Positions 53,972-64,000 of a DNA stretch of 64,000 nt are shown in pieces (position 1 is the stretch's first letter; each line of letters starts with the position of its first letter). The notes under the pieces are model-generated. The model saw only the letters and a program-made list of their open reading frames with translations, did no database searches and had not been told where the DNA came from. Source of the stretch: an uncultured Clostridia bacterium (lineage in GTDB: Bacteria; Bacillota; Clostridia; Oscillospirales; Acutalibacteraceae); contig CANQGK010000014.1 of the NCBI GenBank assembly GCA_947623175.1, forward strand, positions 1 to 64,000, given 5' to 3'. The position numbers were made by a program, and so were the translations under genes.

Positions 53972-55510
<1,539 letters not shown>

Positions 55511-55571
55511 GCTTTGTTACCCAAATATTATAGAGCCGTTTTTTTAAAGGCTGTTAAATGTTAAAAGTTCA

Positions 55572-55609
55572 CTCCCGCAGTCGGCAAATCCGACCGCGGG
55601 AGCGTTTTT
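55572..55609 (+). terminator. Rho-independent terminator
   Basis: CTCCCGC-A-GTCGG pairs with CCGAC-C-GCGGGAG (55572-55602) around CAAAT and is followed by CGTTTTT. It closes the GH51 transcript. Confidence 0.88.
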
Positions 55610-55641
55610 CGTTCTCACTTTAAATTTATCAAATTACACAC

Positions 55642-55670
55642 TTGACAAACAAAAGAATATTCTGTATAAT
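55642..55670 (+). promoter_or_regulatory. Perfect consensus promoter without a gene
   Basis: TTGACA (55642-55647), a 17-nt spacer and TATAAT (55665-55670) match sigma-A consensus exactly. No annotated protein gene follows; a candidate small RNA does. Confidence 0.9.
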
Positions 55671-55676
55671 AATGAT

Positions 55677-55786
55677 GTGGAAACCCGGACGGTTGCCACA
55701 ACACATATGCTACATTGGAATCGTGAAGCTATGCTTCACAAAACCATGAGCCGTTCTGTTGCCGCAGACGGCTCATTTCTTCTTGT
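55677..55786 (+). ncRNA. Candidate small RNA of about 110 nt
   Basis: Between the promoter at 55642-55670 and a T-rich hairpin end lie a perfect 7-bp hairpin GTGAAGC-TAT-GCTTCAC (55723-55739) and a 9-bp hairpin ATGAGCCGT/ACGGCTCAT (55746-55776) followed by TTTCTTCTTG. The promoter, compact paired structure and terminator-like end fit an independent small RNA. No RNA family is recognised. A 35-codon ORF (55707-55814) overlaps it, so the transcript could instead be a short message. Confidence 0.5.
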
Positions 55787-55814
55787 TATGGAGCATATAC
55801 CATACCTGAAATAA
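55707..55814 (+). CDS. Possible 35-residue peptide
   Basis: The ORF begins ATGCTACATTGGAAT and ends at TAA 55814 (MLHWNREAMLHKT...MEHIPYLK). It lies under the consensus promoter but has no ribosome site and runs through both hairpins, so it may not be translated. Confidence 0.2.
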   Translation: MLHWNREAMLHKTMSRSVAADGSFLLVMEHIPYLK

Positions 55815-56021
55815 AATCCAAGCGATGGACACTATCCAAAACATATTTTGAAGAATAATATGTATCGCCACCCTTCGAGAAAAGATTTCCCGCGAGGGCT
55901 ATACACACGACTCCATTCCGCTCTCGCGGGATGACCGGCAACCGTCTTTTAACCGTGCGCCGCCGAGCCGGGAGCGCCATAAGGCATAGACTCGGCATCG
56001 ACGGTGGATTTCCACACGATT

Positions 56022-56051
56022 ATTATACAGTATTCGACACATTTTTGTCAA
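56022..56051 (-). promoter_or_regulatory. Second consensus promoter, convergent with the one at 55642
   Basis: On the minus strand TTGACA (56046-56051), an 18-nt spacer and TATAAT (56022-56027) are followed by AATCGTGTGGAAA. A 70-codon ORF on that transcript (55786-55998) has no ribosome site. Confidence 0.75.
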
Positions 56052-56059
56052 TAGCCGAC

Positions 56060-56511
56060 TGAGGGAGAGATTTTTTGAATGAAAAATGAAGCGGCGCGAT
56101 GCGCCATGAAGAATGAAGCGCTCGCTTGCGCGAGACATTTCGGTGTCCGCTTTGCGGACGAATTGTAAAAAGTAAAAATTTTAGTTTCTTCTTGGCTTTA
56201 GCGCCGTTAATCCCTCCGTCGGCTACGCCGCCACCTCCCTTTAGGCAAGGGAGGCTTTATTTTTATAATCTTTAGCTTATTCTTATAATCTTTCGTCGCA
56301 TCTCGTCTTTACTTTTTCTCTCCTTCCGTCTTGCCTACGGCAAATCCACCTCTCCCGTCAGGTGGAGGCAAGGCGCGCCAAGCGCGCAGTTGGAGAAATT
56401 TCGGAAATTTCGGATATAAAGCTTATTTTCGCCTTTCGGCGATCCGAAAGCAGAAACGTAAGCTTATGCCCTCTAATCGCCGCCCCTCTTTAGAGGGGTG
56501 GCGGGGAAATA
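56060..56511. repeat. Non-coding region of short dispersed GC-rich repeats
   Basis: No gene is seen. It holds three small hairpins (GGCGC/GCGCC at 56093-56105, CTCGC/GCGAG at 56121-56134, GTCCGC/GCGGAC at 56145-56159) spaced by ATGAA-type sequence, the repeat TTTAGGCAAGGGAGGCTTT at about 56241-56263 (also at 1669-1690), CCACCT/AGGTGG (56346-56365), and AGCTTATGCCCT plus an 11-bp hairpin (56479-56504) just after the gene stop at 56512. The last part resembles the sequence after the stop at 59967. Confidence 0.7.
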
Positions 56512-58455
56512 TTATTTTGTATCCAATGTAACTGAGATATTGAATGTATAATCGCTGATATGAGTGATAGCGGCGGTATCACTCGGGGTAAAGTTGGAAT
56601 AGCCATAATCATAATAGGCAATTTTGCCGTTATTCAGCGGAACCTCGTACTGATAATGGGCAATGCGGAATTTTCCGGATTTGAATGTATAGGCTGTGGA
56701 CGTGTCGCCAAACAACCAATTGGAAATGTTTGAAGCCGTCAGATACGGTTGCCATGTTTCTGTTGTATCGTCATACTTCTCAATCACCATTTGATATTTT
56801 GTACCCGACGGTACTCCCATGAACTTGAGCTGACCGTCCTGTTGGATTGCATAGCCACCCAAAGACGCGCTGTCAAAACCGGGACCACGCCATCTATATT
56901 GATTTGGATGTTTATGTAAAGTAACGGTATATTCTTTCTGATCCGGCGTAATAGTTACCATGTTATCACCTAAATCTACGGTGAAATCACCGTAAATAAA
57001 CAAACCGGACGACCAACGAACATATACTTTTGTATTTGCACCGGGAGTTTTGTCAATATCGGCATCGCTTATGGGCGTGCGGAAATCCTTGTCTGCATAG
57101 AACCAATCCGCTTTAGTCAAGTCGAGCTGATATTCGGGTAAGCCTGTAGAAGTGCTGTATCTGATATATTTGCTGAGCAAAGCCGCGTGATAATTTGCGC
57201 TGTTAGCTGCCACATAATCCATAAAGTCGGTTAAAGCTTCCGATTTATACACACTTGTCGGCAGCGGTTCGGTCACGGAGGGATCGAAGCTGTCGGTGCC
57301 GCATTTTAATTCGGTATTGGTGTAGTAGGTAATGGTATACGGGATAGTCCAGGTGATCTTAAAGGGCGAGAAGTTCTTTGTATATATATTGAGCAAGCCC
57401 GTTTCGGCGTTGTACACAAAGCCTTCGTGGTTTGCGTCGCCGCCCTCGGTCATAGGTTCGGTGATATGGGTTACGACAACGTCCTTAAGATTGGGGGCTA
57501 ACTTTATGTTTACCTTGTACATAGTCTCGTCCGCATTCGGTACCTTTTCGTGGTGCTCGTCCAGCAGTGAAATGTCAAGGTCGTGCGAGGTTTTGGTGCG
57601 GTCGGTGGTCTCTACAACCAGGTAAAGCTCCTCAATATCGTCCGAGTCTATAAGGTCGGCGGGCGCGTCTACCGAAATAATATCGTCGCCCACGTGATAA
57701 TAGCCCTCGGAAGGCTCGTCTACCTTTGACGTAAATACCTTATTGAGCAGCTCGGGAAGCTCGATTCCATCGTCGTAAGTCTCATCAAAGCTGTCTTTTT
57801 CATACGGAGTCTGGGTAGCCTGCAGATTTACGCCGAGGTCAATCCAAAGCGGCTCGCCGTCGTTCGATTCCTTGCCGTTGTTAAGGTTATAATCGTTATC
57901 CTTATCGCCAGGCTCCCAATAGAGCACAAGCGCGAATTGCTCCGATTTTCCGGGCAAAAGCAGTTCTCTTTCGGCAGTAAAGTCAGTCACGGTCTTATCA
58001 AAATCCAGCGCCTGCGCCTCGGTTCTGCCGCCCGCGAAGGTGCCGCCCTCGATTGCGGCGACCTTTATAACGTCGGCAAGCGACTTTTCCTCTTCGCCGA
58101 CTTTAACGGTGTTATTGCCCCAAACGTTCATGGCAAGCTTGTACTTTAAGGCAAGGGTTCCCACGTTTTTAACCGTGAAGTTCTCATACGCTATAACGCC
58201 GGGTTCCCAAAGAATGGAATTGCCGTCTGCGTCGAGGAACAGCTTGGTATCGCCGTTTACTTCCGTGTCTGTCTTTACGGACGCGCTGTTGTGCCAAAGC
58301 TCAACGTCCAAATTACCCGCGGTTATCTTATTTCTGCCGCCGGTAACGCTGTCTGTAAACCATGCAAAGGTGGAGCCTATAAGCATCGCAACGCACAAAA
58401 GCAACGAGAGCATGCTCATAAACAGCGCCTTTTTGGTGCTTTTAGTCTGTGTCAT
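56512..58455 (-). CDS. SipW-dependent TasA/camelysin-like protein with long C-terminal domain
   Basis: The 647-residue protein has the SipW-type signal (MTQTKSTKKALFMSMLSLLL..., ...GSTFAWFTDSVTGGRNKITAGNLDVEL). Residues about 40-230 are the TasA/camelysin-like domain (ILWEPGVIAYENFTVKNVGTLALKYKL). About 235-380 is a beta region (DISLLDEHHEKVPNADETMYKVNIKLAP). From about 375 to the end is an unrecognised domain (ITYYTNTELKCGTDSFDP, TVTLHKHPNQYRWRGPGF). AAGGAGTG precedes the start. Its leader and 3' flank match those of the gene at 59967. It is expected to be exported, cleaved by SipW and built into a surface fibre or matrix. Confidence 0.85.
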   Translation of the reverse strand: MTQTKSTKKALFMSMLSLLLCVAMLIGSTFAWFTDSVTGGRNKITAGNLDVELWHNSASVKTDTEVNGDTKLFLDADGNSILWEPGVIAYENFTVKNVGTLALKYKLAMNVWGNNTVKVGEEEKSLADVIKVAAIEGGTFAGGRTEAQALDFDKTVTDFTAERELLLPGKSEQFALVLYWEPGDKDNDYNLNNGKESNDGEPLWIDLGVNLQATQTPYEKDSFDETYDDGIELPELLNKVFTSKVDEPSEGYYHVGDDIISVDAPADLIDSDDIEELYLVVETTDRTKTSHDLDISLLDEHHEKVPNADETMYKVNIKLAPNLKDVVVTHITEPMTEGGDANHEGFVYNAETGLLNIYTKNFSPFKITWTIPYTITYYTNTELKCGTDSFDPSVTEPLPTSVYKSEALTDFMDYVAANSANYHAALLSKYIRYSTSTGLPEYQLDLTKADWFYADKDFRTPISDADIDKTPGANTKVYVRWSSGLFIYGDFTVDLGDNMVTITPDQKEYTVTLHKHPNQYRWRGPGFDSASLGGYAIQQDGQLKFMGVPSGTKYQMVIEKYDDTTETWQPYLTASNISNWLFGDTSTAYTFKSGKFRIAHYQYEVPLNNGKIAYYDYGYSNFTPSDTAAITHISDYTFNISVTLDTK

Positions 58456-58469
58456 GTTTTAACACTCCT

Positions 58470-58660
58470 TATTTAATTTTGCGGCATTTTAAGCGGAGAC
58501 ACGCTCCGAAAATGCCGTCAAAATCGGAGTGCGTCTATCTGGTGATTAAGGTGCGGCTTCCCCTGCGGGAATCCGTCAATTTGCCTAATAAGGCGGACCT
58601 TTGCCCCCCCCCCATGGGAATATTTGTCATTTGTACAAATTTCATAAGAGGAAGCCTCCT
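58470..58660 (-). promoter_or_regulatory. Structured leader with poly-G tract, copy 1
   Basis: This leader matches that at 61240-61450. On the minus strand it holds in order an SD-led short ORF (58535-58645), a run of 10 G (58604-58613), the segment GCACTCCGATTTT-ACGGCATTTTCGGAG and a hairpin CGGCATTTT...AAAATGCCG (58482-58517) ending about 27 nt before the start codon. TCGGAG can pair either with CTCCGA upstream or lie inside the second hairpin, so two folds are possible. Confidence 0.65.
58535..58645 (-). CDS. Upstream short ORF across the poly-G tract, copy 1
   Basis: The 36-codon ORF starts at ATG 58645 with AAAGGAGG 9 nt upstream and stops at TAG 58535. It encodes MKFVQMTNIPMGGGQRSALLG... 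The ten G encode part of Met-Gly-Gly-Gly. Its product is alike in sequence (QMTxIPxGGGxRxALLGxL) to the one at 61309-61434, in the same frame. Translation, and a role in control of the main gene, are inferred. Confidence 0.45.
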   Translation of the reverse strand: MKFVQMTNIPMGGGQRSALLGKLTDSRRGSRTLITR

Positions 58661-58768
58661 TTCTTTAAATTTCGCCTGTTGTTGCGTATATCGGGCATAA
58701 AACGGCATAATTTGCGTTTTAAGCGCTGCAGCCGCTTATTATATGTAAGCGACCGATATACACAATAA

Positions 58769-58797
58769 ATATTAGCACATCATTTTACATTTTTCAA
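58769..58797 (-). promoter_or_regulatory. Likely promoter of the gene at 58455
   Basis: On the minus strand TTGAAA (58792-58797), a 17-nt spacer and TAATAT (58769-58774) lie upstream of the leader. Confidence 0.55.
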
Positions 58798-58838
58798 TAG
58801 CTTTTTGCAAAAATTCGCTAAATCGGCGTAAAAAGCAT

Positions 58839-58878
58839 AAAAAATCGGCAAGCGCTTAAAGTTGCTTGCCGATTTTTT
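58839..58878 (-). terminator. Strong terminator after the LysM gene
   Basis: A perfect 15-bp stem AAAAAATCGGCAAGC (58839-58853, with 58864-58878) and 10-nt loop carries T-runs on both strands. It lies 30 nt after the LysM gene stop and separates it from the next gene. Confidence 0.92.
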
Positions 58879-58907
58879 GAGCCGTATTTTATTTATAAAA
58901 AGGAGTG

Positions 58908-59858
58908 TTAATCACTTGACGTAGAATCGGACGGTTTGCCCGCGGTTTCCGCAGAGGGGGATGAAGTGGTTTCGGGCTGTGAAGCCGCGCCGTCGCTTTC
59001 GGTATTTTTCGAAGCCTCGGTTTCCTCCGCCTTGCTCGATTCGGTGCTGTTCTCGGGCTGTGAAGCGGGAATCTCGACAGGCAATTTATAATTTGCAGGC
59101 GGGATTTTGAGCTTTTGTCCGGCTTCGATCTTGTTGGGATCGGTAAGGCCGTTGTAGGCAACGATTTTTTCGGGAGAAGTACCGAATTTCTCGGCGATTG
59201 CGGAAAGCGACTCGCCCGCCGCAACCGTGTAAGAGGTCGGGTTTTTAGCGGAATTTGCGGTCGTGCCCGGCTCAAATATCTCAGGTCCGCCGCCCGCGGG
59301 AGCGCCTGCAGAACTGCCGACGGTGATTCTGGTGTCGGGCAACTTTTTACTTCCATCTATTGAATCCGGAGCTCTGCCCCATTGAGGTGTGATTGAAAGT
59401 GTAACCGGATCTGGTTCTGTAACATTGATGTTGAATGTTAAACTACCGACTCTTCCGGCAGTCGTAGTGCTGACAACTTTCGGATAAATTTGATCGGTAT
59501 GATATTTTGTTCCGGCAAGTGTTATTTCACAATAACCGCCCGTGAGTGAGGTACCTCCCGCAGTGATTGTGACGGTATAATCGCCCGCAGTCAAATTCCA
59601 TGTATTGGTATCGGCAACCTTTTCGACATTACCACCGCTACCAACAACCACTATATTCGCCGAAAAGTTAGCTGCTTGCAGGCGGGTGGAGCTTTGTGCC
59701 ACCCCGTCCGAAAACCATGCCCACGTCATTCCCATCAGGCACACGAGGCAAACCATGATTCCAAGCAGGGAAGGCGCAATAAGCCGCATAATATTGTCAT
59801 CCGTAGGTTTCGCATGCTGTGGAGAATAAAACCACTTTTTATTGTTCACTGTCTTCAT
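58908..59858 (-). CDS. SipW-type exported protein with LysM domain
   Basis: The 316-residue protein has about 20 leading residues, then a membrane or signal segment ending GMTWAWFSDGVAQSSTRLQAANFSANIVV, a SipW-type pattern. Residues about 50-200 form a beta domain. About 208-253 is a LysM module (SYTVAAGESLSAIAEKFGTS, GLTDPNKIEAGQKLKIP), which binds peptidoglycan. The last 50 residues are Ser/Glu/Pro-rich and disordered. The ATG is only 1-2 nt from AGGAGG; a GTG three codons on has a better 10-nt spacing. It may pin the fibre to the cell wall. Confidence 0.82.
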   Translation of the reverse strand: MKTVNNKKWFYSPQHAKPTDDNIMRLIAPSLLGIMVCLVCLMGMTWAWFSDGVAQSSTRLQAANFSANIVVVGSGGNVEKVADTNTWNLTAGDYTVTITAGGTSLTGGYCEITLAGTKYHTDQIYPKVVSTTTAGRVGSLTFNINVTEPDPVTLSITPQWGRAPDSIDGSKKLPDTRITVGSSAGAPAGGGPEIFEPGTTANSAKNPTSYTVAAGESLSAIAEKFGTSPEKIVAYNGLTDPNKIEAGQKLKIPPANYKLPVEIPASQPENSTESSKAEETEASKNTESDGAASQPETTSSPSAETAGKPSDSTSSD

Positions 59859-59891
59859 CCCTCCTGAAATTATTTTAAGTAAATTATTTCA

Positions 59892-59955
59892 GCATTCAAA
59901 AGGCACAAATCGTAGCTTATGCCCTTTGAATGCCGCCCTCCGCAAGGGAGGAGCG
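59892..59955. repeat. 3' flank repeat shared with the gene at 56512
   Basis: GCATTCAAA-GGCA (59892-59905) pairs with TGCC-TTTGAATGC (59920-59933). The part from about 59914 (AGCTTATGCCCT, then a CCTCC/GGAGG hairpin to 59955) resembles the sequence at 56462-56504. Both copies start 8-12 nt after the stop codon of a TasA-like gene. Confidence 0.6.
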
Positions 59956-59966
59956 GTATTTTATTT

Positions 59967-61229
59967 TTAAAATTTTTCGAACTCTTTATCTGTGGCTAAG
60001 CCTGAGCAACCCTCAAAGGTAACCTCGTAGGTATCTGTCTCGGTTTCGGGATCTATACTTACGCCGTAGTTTGTATTTTCAAACTTGCAATTTTTGAAAA
60101 CAATTGTAGATTTGTTGTCCGCTTTATTGGGGTTACAGCAAACGGCGGCATACAAATTCTTAAAGGTGCAGTTTTCGAACACGAGCGTTACGTTCGAATC
60201 GAAGCCCAAAACGGTGGCAAATTGACCGTCTAAAGCGTCGGCTTTCGCGCCCTCAAACACGATATTGCTGAAATTAAGGGTGCCTTCGTTTATGCCCTCG
60301 AGTCCGTCGTTGTTGTTAAAGGCGGTATGCTCTACGGTAAGAGTCTTGCCCTCGCCGTTTATCGAAACGTCGGCGCCGTTTTCAAGCTCTACGCCGTCGC
60401 GCTCGGTGAAGACGATGTCGCCGCCAAGCTGAAGATCTACATGCTCGCCTGCCTTTGCGGCTTCGAGTGCCTCGTTAAGGCCTTTTGAAGTGGTGGTGGG
60501 CAGTAATTCTTCTGAGCCGGCGTCATAATCCTTGCCGAAGCTGTCAAACTCATAGGAAGCCTGTGTACCTACAACGCTCACGATAAGTCCGTCTATAGAC
60601 TTGCCCTGAAATTCGTTGCCGGCTTCTTCCTTCATATGGATTTGGATCTCCATATCGGGCGAAGTATCTTTATGATGTGTATGGGGAGATTCCTGATCTT
60701 TGCCGACTAAACTCCAATCGAAAGCGACGTTTCCGTCCTTGGTGCCCATAATAGGATAGTATCTTTGATCTTTGTTTGTGCTGTAATCTTTTTCAACGCC
60801 ACCTTCATATATTATAGCGTTTTTTCCACTGACAATCGTTTCAAATTCAAGAGCGTCCATAAGCTCCTCGTCGCCGGTGATACCGTCGATTTTAAGGATA
60901 AAGTATGACGCCACGCTGCCTTCGTTGCGTACGCGAAGCTTGGGAGTTTTAAAGGTACATCCGGGTTCGAAAAGTATTTTGTCGGCGGATACTATCTGAT
61001 TTTCGCGGATAAAGCCTATCGGCTTATCTTCGGCGTCAAGCCAATTACCCGTTTCGGGATCGAACATTTCGAGTACAAGGTCGAGATTGCCGGCTACGAT
61101 TTTATTTTTGGCGCTTGAAACGGAATCGGTGAACCACGCAAAGGTGGAGCCTATCAGCATTGCAACGCACAAAAGCATTGACAGCAGGCTTGCAAGCAAG
61201 GCTTTTTTGGTGTTTTTGGTTTGTGTCAT
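59967..61229 (-). CDS. SipW-dependent TasA/camelysin-like protein with beta-helix-like C-terminus
   Basis: The 420-residue protein has the SipW-type signal (MTQTKNTKKALLASLLSMLL..., GSTFAWFTDSVSSAKNKIVAGNLDLVLEMF). Residues about 40-235 are the TasA/camelysin-like domain (ILFEPGCTFKTPKLRVRNEGSVASYFILKI). From about 260 the sequence reads as short repeated strands (ADVSINGEGKTLTVEH, TLNFSNIVFEGAK, VTLVFENCTFKNL, STIVFKNCKFENT), a beta-helix pattern. ATG 61229 has AGGAG 8 nt upstream; GTG 61238 is too close. It lies downstream of sipW with its own 263-nt leader. Confidence 0.87.
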   Translation of the reverse strand: MTQTKNTKKALLASLLSMLLCVAMLIGSTFAWFTDSVSSAKNKIVAGNLDLVLEMFDPETGNWLDAEDKPIGFIRENQIVSADKILFEPGCTFKTPKLRVRNEGSVASYFILKIDGITGDEELMDALEFETIVSGKNAIIYEGGVEKDYSTNKDQRYYPIMGTKDGNVAFDWSLVGKDQESPHTHHKDTSPDMEIQIHMKEEAGNEFQGKSIDGLIVSVVGTQASYEFDSFGKDYDAGSEELLPTTTSKGLNEALEAAKAGEHVDLQLGGDIVFTERDGVELENGADVSINGEGKTLTVEHTAFNNNDGLEGINEGTLNFSNIVFEGAKADALDGQFATVLGFDSNVTLVFENCTFKNLYAAVCCNPNKADNKSTIVFKNCKFENTNYGVSIDPETETDTYEVTFEGCSGLATDKEFEKF

Positions 61230-61239
61230 ATCACACACT

Positions 61240-61450
61240 CCTATTCGATTTTTTCGGCATTTTAAAGGGTACGCGCCCTCCGAAAATGCCGTAAAAATCG
61301 GAGTGCGTTTATATTATGAGGCTCATATTCGCCCCGTGGGCTTTATGGGTTTTCGGCAATCTGCCTAATAAGGCGGGCCGGTACCCCCCCCCCCTGGGTA
61401 TTTTTGTCATTTGTATATTTTTCATATTTTTCATAAGAGGTCGCCCCCCC
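61240..61450 (-). promoter_or_regulatory. Structured leader with poly-G tract, copy 2
   Basis: This leader is similar to copy 1 at 58470-58660 over its length. It holds an ORF (61309-61434), a run of 11 G (61384-61394), GCACTCCGATTTTTACGGC and hairpin CGGCATTTT...AAAATGCCG (61255-61291) with a different inner stem. A further run of 7 G (61444-61450) replaces the ribosome-site region of copy 1. It fills most of the gap between sipW and the gene at 61229. Confidence 0.65.
61309..61434 (-). CDS. Upstream short ORF across the poly-G tract, copy 2
   Basis: The 41-codon ORF starts at ATG 61434 and stops at TAA 61309 (MKNMKNIQMTKIPRGGGYRPALLG...). It is similar in sequence and frame to the ORF at 58535-58645: 'CCCAT' plus 10 G there and 'CCCA' plus 11 G here keep the same length. 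No clear SD is seen apart from the G-run. Confidence 0.4.
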   Translation of the reverse strand: MKNMKNIQMTKIPRGGGYRPALLGRLPKTHKAHGANMSLII

Positions 61451-61492
61451 TTTCATAATTTTTTATCGCGTTTTTCGCGCGTTATAAGCTTT

Positions 61493-62845
61493 TTATTCGT
61501 TCTCGCCGGGCTGTACTTCCGGCTCGGTCGGTAATTCCTCCTGCACCGGTGCAGGTTGAGGCTCGGCGGGTTGCTCCGTCGGCTGTACGGGCTGTACCGG
61601 CTCTGCAGGTTGTACCGGTTCAGTAGGCTGTACAGGTTGAGGTTGAACCGGTTGTGCAGGTTCAACGGGTTGTTGTACCGGTTGAGGTTCCGCAGGTTGT
61701 GCCGGCGCTATGGGCGGCTGTGGAACTGCCGGTTGCTGAGTCTGTACGGGTTGAGGCTGTACCGCCGGTTGGGCTTGCTCTATGGGCTGAGCTTCTACGA
61801 CGGGTTGGGGAACCGGTTGAGGCGCCGGTTGGGGTTCAACGGGCGGCTGAGGATTTACAACAGGCTGAGGCTCGGCAGCTTGCGGTTGTGCCACAGGCTG
61901 AGCAACGGGTTGAGCGGCAGGTTGAACAACGGGTTGAGGCTGCGCGGGTTGAACCACGGGCTGTACCGACTGCTGAGGCGCCGCGGGCTGCTGTACTATC
62001 GGCTGCGCCGCAGGTTGTACGGGTTGCTGAGGTTGCTGAGGCTGTTGATAAATTGGTTGTGCCACGGGCGGCTGTTGGTAAACCGGCTGACCGGGCATTA
62101 CCGGTTGTTGATAAACCGGTTGCTGAGGCATCACGGGCTGCTGCGCCGTGGGCTGCTGTGACGAGTCGATCTGCTGACGCAGGTTCAAAAGCTCCTGCAT
62201 CATCTTTTGCTGTTCGGCGCGCTCGTCCTCTATTCTTTGCCGCTCGGCTTCAAGCTCTTCCATTTGCTCTCTGCGGTAACGGCGGAACAGGCGAATACTG
62301 TTTATACCCTGGACAAGTATAAGGAAAAGGAAGGGTATCAATATACATACTATATAACCGGGAGTGGTTTTTAAGAATTGGAAAAATCTGCCCACGCCCG
62401 GGAGTCTGAACTTGTACTGACCGAGAATGAAGCTGTAGGATACAACCGTAGCGTCGTCGGTATTGGTGGTGGTACCGTAGGTTACGAAGCCGGGATTGCC
62501 GTCCTCGTCGATACCGCGTCTTCTGATTTTATGGGTTATAACCTCGCCGTAGCTGTCCGGATCGACCGATTGGAAGGTGATGATGTCGCCCTCTTTTAAG
62601 GTGGAGGGATCCTTTACCGCTTTGGATATAACGAGGTCGCCCGCCGCAAAATCGGTAGCCTTCATTGAGTCGGATTGTACGATAAACGCCTTAAATCCGA
62701 AAATGCTTCGATCGGGCCTGTCAAACGTCGTTACCGATACGATGGTAAAAATCATCATAAACACGGCAACCGCCATAACCGCCCAGGTTATAATGTTTTT
62801 TATAATATTCAATACTTTTTTCACTACGCTGGTTCCTTCCTGCAT
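61493..62845 (-). CDS. sipW: SipW-type signal peptidase I with long Pro/Gln-rich tail
   Basis: The 450-residue protein has an N-terminal membrane helix, catalytic Ser60 in QSDSM, His105 in VITHKI (the Ser/His pair of ER-type peptidases, as in SipW), TYGTTTNTDDA near residue 125-132, and a second membrane helix at about 158-180. A charged coiled-coil-like stretch (about 190-225) leads into about 220 residues of Pro, Gln, Val and Ala. SipW of Bacillus is about 190 residues and has no such tail. M1 lacks a ribosome site; GTG seven codons later has AGGAAGG 10 nt upstream. It processes the TasA-like proteins around it. Confidence 0.88.
   Translation of the reverse strand: MQEGTSVVKKVLNIIKNIITWAVMAVAVFMMIFTIVSVTTFDRPDRSIFGFKAFIVQSDSMKATDFAAGDLVISKAVKDPSTLKEGDIITFQSVDPDSYGEVITHKIRRRGIDEDGNPGFVTYGTTTNTDDATVVSYSFILGQYKFRLPGVGRFFQFLKTTPGYIVCILIPFLFLILVQGINSIRLFRRYRREQMEELEAERQRIEDERAEQQKMMQELLNLRQQIDSSQQPTAQQPVMPQQPVYQQPVMPGQPVYQQPPVAQPIYQQPQQPQQPVQPAAQPIVQQPAAPQQSVQPVVQPAQPQPVVQPAAQPVAQPVAQPQAAEPQPVVNPQPPVEPQPAPQPVPQPVVEAQPIEQAQPAVQPQPVQTQQPAVPQPPIAPAQPAEPQPVQQPVEPAQPVQPQPVQPTEPVQPAEPVQPVQPTEQPAEPQPAPVQEELPTEPEVQPGENE
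61505..62165 (-). repeat. Low-complexity Pro/Gln repeat tract inside sipW
   Basis: Short units such as QPVxQP and QPAxPQ recur about 50 times over roughly 660 bp. At the DNA level GGTTG/GGCTG steps repeat, so slippage and length variation between strains are likely. Confidence 0.8.
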
Positions 62846-62892
62846 TTACAATACAGCCTCACTTTCATATTTTAAACGCCGGGGCTCTATTA

Positions 62893-63441
62893 TCAATCGA
62901 ACAGACGGTTCGGATTATTCTTGGTCTGTACCGCATCCGCCGCGATGTCAAAGCTGAGGGAAAGACCCTGCGCTTCGTTGCCCGCAGTTTCGGGGAAATG
63001 AAGCGATAAAATCAAATTCTTTTTCTGGTGAATTTTAAGCATATCCGCGGTGGCGGCGGTTTTATCCTTGGACATATCGTTAGGAGAGCCGCTCCAGAGC
63101 ACGTTGTCGCCGTCGCGCAGGGTTACCTCGAGCGTATCGGCGAGTCCGCCCTCAACGTTTTCGAAATAGAGGCGATACCAAACGTCCCAGGTGCTTAAGT
63201 TTTCTATGTAGAACTGCTTCTCGACGGTCATTCCCGGCTCAAAGAGGAACTCGTGCTCCTCGATTACGGGCTTGCCGTCGTTTAGATTGATCTTTACCGA
63301 GCCTGTATGGAACAGGTTGTTCTCGACCGAGAGTATCGACCACGCCAAGGCAAAGGTGGTTATGCAAAGGCACAATGCAAGGATAAAAATCGTAACTAAC
63401 GAACCGGTTACCTTTTTTTCCGTATTTTTCTTGTTATGCAT
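62893..63441 (-). CDS. SipW-type small secreted substrate
   Basis: The 182-residue protein has a basic start, a membrane or signal segment (SLVTIFILALCLCITTFALAWSILSVENNLFHTG) and a small TasA/camelysin-like beta domain with EFLFEPGMTVEKQFYIENLSTWDVWYRLYF. It lies 47 nt before sipW and overlaps the PKTGD protein gene by 8 nt. Such a small member could be a minor subunit or a chaperone-like partner, as TapA is for TasA in Bacillus (inferred by position only). Confidence 0.8.
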   Translation of the reverse strand: MHNKKNTEKKVTGSLVTIFILALCLCITTFALAWSILSVENNLFHTGSVKINLNDGKPVIEEHEFLFEPGMTVEKQFYIENLSTWDVWYRLYFENVEGGLADTLEVTLRDGDNVLWSGSPNDMSKDKTAATADMLKIHQKKNLILSLHFPETAGNEAQGLSLSFDIAADAVQTKNNPNRLFD

Positions 63442-64000
63442 CTTTTTTCTTCCCCTTTCGACGCGGCACCAAAAGTAAAATGATTATAAGCAGTGAGCCG
63501 GCGGCAAGACCGAGCCATAAGTAAATATTGAAATTATCGCCGGTCTTGGGAGCTTCAAGATTATCGGTTTCCTCAACCCACCAATTAAAGTCGGCTATAA
63601 GGCTTTTGTCCATATATTCGTTGCCTACGCTTGTATCGAGGTAGGCGGTGATTTCGTAATAAAGCTCGCTCTGGGTGGATTTTTTGGTTTTAAGCACGTG
63701 GTTGAGCGATTTCGGCATATCCTTCATAAGGCCGTCGTACAAGGTTTCGTCCGTGTCGAGCAGGCGAATACGCACCTTGAGCACCTCGGCAAGCTTTTCG
63801 TAGCCCTCGCGAACGTCGGCATGGTAGCGAAGGATTATATCGCCCTTGTAATAAACCTTAACGCAGAAATACTTGGTCTCGGAGTCTCCCGGGAACATAT
63901 TGTTTACCTTAAACGGGGTATTGTCGTTCGGCTTGCGTTTATGTAAGGTAAGCGCGCCGGCTATGTTGTGCTCCTCGGGCTTGCTCGCGGTAAGTGCGGA
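63434..64000 (-). CDS. Sortase-anchored-type surface protein, N-terminally partial
   Basis: The frame is open to the end of the window, so the N-terminus lies beyond base 64000. At least 188 residues are seen. The visible part has camelysin-like strands (FPGDSETKYFCVKVYYKGDIILRY). It ends in PKTGD (an LPxTG-like variant), a membrane helix of about 20 residues and RRKGKKKDA, a classical wall-sorting tail. The 8-nt overlap with the next gene shows a joint operon with sipW. It may anchor the fibre to the wall; a sortase is not in the window. Confidence 0.85.
   Translation of the reverse strand, partial: SALTASKPEEHNIAGALTLHKRKPNDNTPFKVNNMFPGDSETKYFCVKVYYKGDIILRYHADVREGYEKLAEVLKVRIRLLDTDETLYDGLMKDMPKSLNHVLKTKKSTQSELYYEITAYLDTSVGNEYMDKSLIADFNWWVEETDNLEAPKTGDNFNIYLWLGLAAGSLLIIILLLVPRRKGKKKDA

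Follow-up and report, generated by a model that had tools for sequence, protein, structure and literature searches.

Phase variation by slippage is best known in Gram-negative pathogens, where the slippage tract usually sits in the promoter or in the switched gene itself; in the Opa genes, for example, the repeats are part of the sequence that encodes the signal peptide. Here we describe a family of mRNA leaders from an uncultured Clostridia bacterium of the Acutalibacteraceae (GenBank assembly GCA_947623175.1) in which the candidate slippage tract, a run of G, is instead located in a separate upstream open reading frame (uORF) that precedes genes for SipW-type surface proteins. Two such leaders lie in the stretch of DNA analyzed, positions 1 to 64,000 of contig CANQGK010000014.1 (referred to as the window), and leaders of this kind were found to be numerous in the rest of the genome. 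Among described systems, the sortase-pilus G-tracts of Bifidobacterium breve UCC2003 are similar in that slippage decides the expression of a surface protein, and a culture was found to hold a mixture of lengths at bbr_0113, with G11 at ~37% and G12 at ~60% (PMC9187656). Both cases concern a Gram-positive gut bacterium, poly-G of similar length, and surface proteins. The B. breve tract, however, is described as part of the surface gene's own reading frame, where it joins two open reading frame (ORF) parts, and two loci are described for UCC2003 (PMC9187656); here the tract is located in a separate uORF and would act through a predicted hairpin directed against the Shine-Dalgarno (SD) sequence, and 32 leaders were found. 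In the tlpB-hp0102/RepG system of Helicobacter pylori, a surface trait is likewise controlled by a G repeat of variable length in the mRNA leader; this length gradually tunes the pairing of the small RNA (sRNA) RepG (PMC8295292). The present leaders differ in that they conserve a coding uORF together with its frame. The phase-variable region of CwpV in Clostridium difficile is likewise positioned ahead of a clostridial surface protein and leaves promoter and coding region unchanged; unlike the leaders examined here, it is described as a single locus that switches by DNA inversion with a proposed intrinsic terminator, and not by slippage (PMC2784873). The Opa proteins of Neisseria gonorrhoeae likewise form a dispersed, phase-variable surface-gene family, with ~11 members (PMC3745409). 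The family described here is larger. In erm-type systems, uORFs control the translation of the next gene and respond to ribosome stalling. Translation of the uORF similarly controls the next gene in toiL-topAI of Escherichia coli, where the uORF responds to ribosome stalling (PMC12121999); in the leaders described here, control would instead be set by a mutable tract within the uORF. A poly-G uORF gating a masked SD was not among the matches listed in the open-licence PMC literature, which is not proof of its absence in print. What appears in the present genome, as judged from its sequence, is a slippage tract in a separate and selected uORF that gates a masked SD before at least 31 surface proteins.

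The leader probably acts as a phase-variable translational switch, in which the reading frame across the uORF tract decides whether the SD of the surface gene is unmasked. In this scheme, a uORF carrying a slippage-prone poly-G tract would be translated in the mRNA leader, and a hairpin located 3′ of it would sequester the SD of the surface gene. With the tract in frame, the ribosome would run to a stop codon that abuts the anti-SD arm of the hairpin and would cover or melt this arm, thus freeing the main SD (ON). Loss of one base would lead to an early stop short of the arm, such that the gene would remain masked (OFF), and gain of one base would result in either an early stop (OFF; half of the leaders) or a run beyond the arm (the other half; state uncertain). 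Slippage is presumably the cause of the differences in tract length, and the change would presumably be reversible and have an ON/OFF effect on expression.

The first-pass annotation of the window had reported runs of 10 and 11 G ahead of both surface-protein genes, each within a short ORF carrying a kept motif; the two runs, the two ORFs, and the motif common to them (QMTxIPxGGGxRxALLGxL) were all confirmed (Table 1). With overlaps counted, the window has 5 matches to 9 G; in 100 dinucleotide shuffles the mean was 0.42, and none reached 5. Each of the two uORFs is preceded by its own SD-like sequence. In copy 1, the tract is positioned ~150 nucleotides (nt) 5′ of the start codon of the surface gene, inside the separate ORF and outside the surface-protein coding region. 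The annotation had also placed the copy 1 tract between the promoter and the main start. The tract does precede the start, and a promoter-like match was identified 5′ of the tract; the promoter itself is a weak consensus match, being one of 8 such matches between positions 58400 and 61600 (shuffle mean 3.7), and is therefore weak evidence.

The leaders were surveyed in the whole of their own genome (G000; 2.38 Mb in 54 contigs, 94.35% complete). The copy 2 peptide was matched 29 times at E-values up to 10, and 9 G was matched 74 times, with overlaps, which we count as 34 separate runs. By reading the sites from both searches, 32 leaders of this kind were identified, and these were found to hold 30 of the 34 genomic runs of at least 9 G. 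A SipW-type surface-protein gene is located behind 31 of the 32 leaders, that is, wherever the gene is present on the contig; for the remaining leader (C17:140) the main gene is lost at the contig end. The tracts are pure in 30 leaders, in which they range from 9 to 13 G, and are interrupted by a T within the G run in two (C38:776, L019; C38:14724, L026), both of which are in frame and look, from their sequence, as if they were locked ON. When SipW-type N-termini were searched for, 39 were found in the genome at E-values up to 1e-6, including (i) 31 with a leader; (ii) one, C5:101441, without a leader; and (iii) 7 that are truncated by contig ends, as judged by coordinates. Some contigs were found to terminate within the leader repeats. 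One leader (C6:84486, L020) carries a 75-nt insertion 3′ of the tract, a multiple of three, with an open downstream frame, a GTG start, and a tract in the run-through frame.

The uORF was examined for signs of selection in 22 leaders of equal length (19 of them distinct). The ratio of nonsynonymous to synonymous polymorphism (pN/pS) 3′ of the tract was 0.356 in the frame of the uORF versus 1.178 and 1.181 in the other two frames, and the diversity summed by uORF codon position was 2.31, 2.37, and 4.70. The segments both 5′ and 3′ of the tract are open in all 32 leaders, when the 3′ part is read in the frame of the conserved stop, and the uORF start is preceded by an SD-like sequence, which is weaker in two leaders. 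By this pattern of sequence change, the uORF is under purifying selection as a coding sequence, and its translation is indicated indirectly.

When the uORF was read across the tract as assembled, the conserved stop was reached from the uORF start in 23 of the 32 leaders and missed in 9. This excess of in-frame leaders has a probability of 9e-6 (at least 23 of 32 at a chance of 1/3) in a test that takes the paralogs as independent. Of the out-of-frame leaders, six encounter an early stop (C16:2912, C28:16970, C8:43050, C35:6367, C35:4058, and C35:2549), and three continue beyond the arm (C8:80254, C33:1869, and C6:84486), with stops at +17, +17, and +62. All nine are followed by intact main genes, of 396 to 727 amino acids. 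With one base removed from the tract, all 32 leaders encounter an early stop; with one base added, 16 do so and the other 16 run through. In a tree of 31 leaders constructed with the tract masked, the out-of-frame label requires 8 changes, compared with a mean of 7.9 for shuffled labels (336 of 500 shuffles were as low). The tree includes a well-supported sister pair of opposite state, in which C39:17727 has 10 G and is in frame and C28:16970 has 9 G and is out of frame. Variation in tract length was thus observed between paralogs of a single genome.

The position of the conserved uORF stop was compared with that of the anti-SD arm, ACGCACTCC, which is complementary to the main SD, GGAGTG. The two were found to be no more than 3 nt apart in 32 of 32 leaders, and this placement of the stop at the arm therefore offers a concrete mechanism for an effect of the frame. 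Folding was performed on the 31 leaders with a complete main start. In all 31 of these leaders, the six pairs between the arm and GGAG(T/C)G are standard, and only one of the six varies (A-U in 28, G-U in 2, and G-C in 1), with a single two-sided change. The pairs were counted by script, as RNA model R1 had been built on an RNAalifold structure without the outer anti-SD stem, which was missed because the SD was misaligned. By partition function, the predicted probability of SD-arm pairing has a median of 0.98 (range 0.60 to 1.00). In the free RNA, the predicted unpaired fraction of the SD has a median of 0.01, and with a ribosome that has stopped early, by 38 nt, it is likewise 0.01. When the ribosome is placed at the conserved stop, the median rises to 0.38 and the predicted cost of opening the SD drops from 9.1 to 5.2 kcal/mol; 17 nt further, the median is 0.28. 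Shuffling of the region 5′ of the SD gave a median unpaired fraction of 0.29, and values of 0.05 or less were found for 29 of 31 real leaders versus 6.6% of shuffles; in 21 of 31 leaders the unpaired fraction did not exceed that of any of the 20 shuffles of the same leader. By the same folding, the SD of the leaderless paralog C5:101441 is open (0.97 unpaired), and those of four congener homologues are 0.46 to 0.60 unpaired. Overall, the main SD is predicted by these models to be masked by the leader hairpin. The earlier proposal that a change of tract length would shift the frame of the short ORF and alter translation of the surface gene is supported, at the level of sequence and modeling, by the 23 in-frame and 9 out-of-frame leaders, the selected uORF, and the stop at the anti-SD arm.

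Table 1. Features of the two leader loci and the adjacent signal peptidase gene, in window coordinates
Feature	Coordinates	Strand	Details
Copy 1 promoter-like match	58769..58797	-	TTGAAA-17-TAATAT, 5′ of copy 1; consensus only
Copy 1 uORF Shine-Dalgarno	58655..58659	-	GGAGG; sequence
Copy 1 upstream ORF	58535..58645	-	36 amino acids, MKFVQMTNIPMGGGQRSALLGKLTDSRRGSRTLITR; ATG at 58645, stop ending at 58535
Copy 1 poly-G tract	58604..58613	-	10 G, in frame
Copy 1 anti-Shine-Dalgarno arm	58526..58534	-	ACGCACTCC, directly 3′ of uORF stop
Copy 1 long hairpin predicted to mask main Shine-Dalgarno	58463..58534	-	Outer stem CACTCC/GGAGTG, inner stem CGGCATTTT/AAAATGCCG; minimum free energy, partition function, alignment
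Copy 1 main-gene Shine-Dalgarno	58463..58468	-	GGAGTG
Copy 1 main gene, SipW-type surface protein	56512..58455	-	647 amino acids; TIGR04088 over cut-off; PF12389 N-terminus
Copy 2 upstream ORF	61309..61434	-	41 amino acids, MKNMKNIQMTKIPRGGGYRPALLGRLPKTHKAHGANMSLII
Copy 2 poly-G tract	61384..61394	-	11 G, in frame
Copy 2 anti-Shine-Dalgarno arm	61300..61308	-	ACGCACTCC, directly 3′ of uORF stop
Copy 2 hairpin predicted to mask main Shine-Dalgarno	61236..61308	-	Predicted by folding
Copy 2 main-gene Shine-Dalgarno	61236..61241	-	GGAGTG
Copy 2 main gene, SipW-type surface protein	59967..61229	-	420 amino acids; TIGR04088 over cut-off
SipW-like signal peptidase	61493..62845	-	TIGR02228 over cut-off; NF046067 (SipW) matched below cut-off

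The proteins encoded behind the leaders were compared with domain families. At E-values up to 0.001, PF12389 was matched by 31 of 31 main proteins, not always over its gathering score, and TIGR04088 by 30 of 31, and from membership in these families we infer that the products are surface proteins. Repeats were detected at the same threshold, with DUF285/PARCEL repeats in 5 of the 31 proteins and BspA-type leucine-rich repeats in 5. The first 50 residues of the 31 proteins are on average 82% identical, and beyond alignment column 300 the identity is only 23%; a near-constant leader and signal region therefore heads divergent surface proteins.

Outside of this genome, the leader was not detected in any of the collections searched. 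Among 60 congeners, 49 have no run of at least 9 G and 11 have one, compared with 34 in the own genome. The uORF peptide was found in the own genome only, both among 60 genomes (the own genome and 59 further ones, of which 36 are congeners and 23 come from elsewhere in the order) and among 394 genomes drawn from the order, the own genome included. RNA model R1, applied to 60 congeners with stricter filters, gave four hits, all weak (E-values of 0.02 to 0.07) and at three sites in total, in G001, G031, and G070, and a script check of the DNA there revealed no G run longer than 5 and no anti-SD arm. Pattern searches of larger contig collections, which may exclude the own genome or a very near relative, gave (i) 74 uORF matches in GTDB contigs, none confirmed, with the hairpin pattern search also without a member; (ii) 18 matches in viral contigs, none confirmed; and (iii) no member in plasmids and phages. 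SipW-type N-termini of this kind were matched 7 times in 4 of 60 congeners, at one or two each. In up to 460 nt 5′ of six of the seven, no G run longer than 5, anti-SD arm, or uORF motif was found; the seventh (L092, E-value 8e-7) was outside this check. As a separate observation, in congener G081 a short ORF that contains cysteine lies immediately 5′ of the SipW-like gene and has, close to its start, a 10-G tract (G081:C5:126737, L122); the frames 5′ and 3′ of this tract disagree. Judging by this arrangement, L122 may represent slippage at an independent site of the same operon.

Other explanations of the leader were weighed against the proposed switch. The combination of a uORF with a masked SD is, as generally known, the layout of translation attenuators, and 23 of 32 leaders are in frame; the uORF might thus be a leader peptide that senses some condition by ribosome stalling, with no phase variation, in which case the poly-G would represent three Gly codons and the out-of-frame copies would be decayed or misassembled. 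To encode three Gly residues, a G run need not be unbroken, but in 30 of 32 leaders it is pure and at least 9 bases long, and the 9 out-of-frame copies keep both flanks of the tract open and their main genes intact, which decay would not predict, and we regard an attenuator of this type as unlikely. Quite improbable as well is a rheostat in which the G tract serves as the target of a C/U-rich sRNA, such that length tunes the pairing and the frame of the uORF is irrelevant. The G repeat in the mRNA leader of H. pylori is described as being controlled in this way, best at 9 to 12 G (PMC8295292), and the pure tracts examined here have 9 to 13 G. A rheostat is nonetheless at odds with the selection of the uORF as coding sequence, the frame kept above chance, and the stop fixed at the anti-SD arm, as well as with the existence of two interrupted tracts, both in frame.

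The location of this stop also bears on the possibility of a frame-gated switch that acts on transcription or mRNA stability (e.g., by polarity, Rho, or decay of the untranslated leader) instead of on SD unmasking. An early uORF stop would leave a stretch of the leader untranslated and could expose the RNA to Rho or nucleases; this version, however, leaves unexplained both the stop at no more than 3 nt from the arm in 32 of 32 leaders and the predicted masking of the SD in 31 of 31, and is in our estimation very improbable. That the tract lengths are assembly noise, and the leader merely a duplicated promoter-signal-peptide cassette, would be in keeping with the multiple contigs that end in these repeats, the difficulty of sequencing long G runs, and the report that tract lengths in databases can differ from those of the population (PMC9187656). 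Noise in length, however, creates neither a selected uORF nor a stop fixed at the anti-SD arm, and the frames are kept above chance, so that an artefact of this kind is extremely unlikely.

The proposed translational switch was likewise examined for observations that weigh against it. Regarding the frame, (i) the well-supported branches of the tree alone force only 3 changes, and the 32 paralogs do not equal 32 independent origins; (ii) assembled homopolymers of 9 to 13 G can be wrong, and some of the 9 out-of-frame calls could be errors; and (iii) only 6 of 32 leaders are clearly OFF under the model, because 3 of the 9 out-of-frame leaders run beyond the arm. Regarding the hairpin, support from covariation is thin, since the anti-SD stem is nearly invariant, with one two-sided change at one pair, and the SD of 10 of 31 leaders is predicted to be more exposed than that of at least one of the 20 shuffles of the same leader. 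In addition, a ribosome at the conserved stop is predicted to free the SD only in part, and the value for a ribosome 17 nt beyond is similar (0.38 and 0.28, respectively, as given above), and therefore the run-through frames need not be OFF.

The window and the genome were found to include further features near or similar to these leaders. The gene next to copy 2 encodes a SipW-like signal peptidase (Table 1), which had no Pfam match at E-values up to 0.01 and has a long, P/Q-rich C-terminal tail of ~250 residues; it is presumed to be the processing enzyme. An Rfam scan of positions 55000 to 64000 gave 7 matches at E-values up to 5, none of which was at or above its gathering score; no search aimed at a partner sRNA was made. 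In copy 1, GGCTTCC (58650-58656), beside the uORF start, is complementary to GGAAGCC (58555-58561), near the uORF end, and the two tend, by eye, to co-occur or to be jointly absent across leaders; based on this complementarity, a second helix controlling translation of the uORF is possible. Four runs of at least 9 G are located outside of the leaders (G000:C2:86126, L029; C2:93364, L030; C5:66177, L031; and C12:39593, L033), in or beside genes that resemble those for surface-polysaccharide functions: an ATP-grasp protein of sugar-transfer type, a cytidylyltransferase, a ParA-like ATPase, possibly a capsule kinase, and a glycosyltransferase of family 2 with a GtrA-type gene next to it. The ORF of the ATPase, at L031, begins just 3′ of a 12-base tract and is preceded by a short ORF in a different frame. 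From their sequence context, these four loci look like further contingency loci. Loss of mismatch repair was considered as a source of long tracts and was dropped. No match over cut-off was found for mutS1 or mutL in the own genome, which is 94% complete, whereas all 30 congeners compared had matches to both. The genes next to them at the congener locus, miaB and miaA, also had no close match in the own genome, in which only two places were found, 33% and 28% identical to the MiaB part. With mutS1/mutL and miaB/miaA all missing, a gap in assembly or binning is likely, and the absence of mutS and mutL is therefore not usable as evidence.

Returning to the leader as a translational switch, we lean toward a broader model in which a mobile or gene-converted leader cassette, made up of the poly-G uORF, the anti-SD hairpin, and a common signal-peptide coding region, has spread before at least 31 divergent surface proteins, each locus would flip independently by slippage in its uORF, and a combinatorial coat would result. 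Control would be exerted through translational coupling and not through the frame or promoter of the surface gene itself, and each switch could have three states (ON, OFF, and run-through). If true, these leaders would represent a new wiring for a contingency locus and would provide the bacterium with a large combinatorial surface repertoire.

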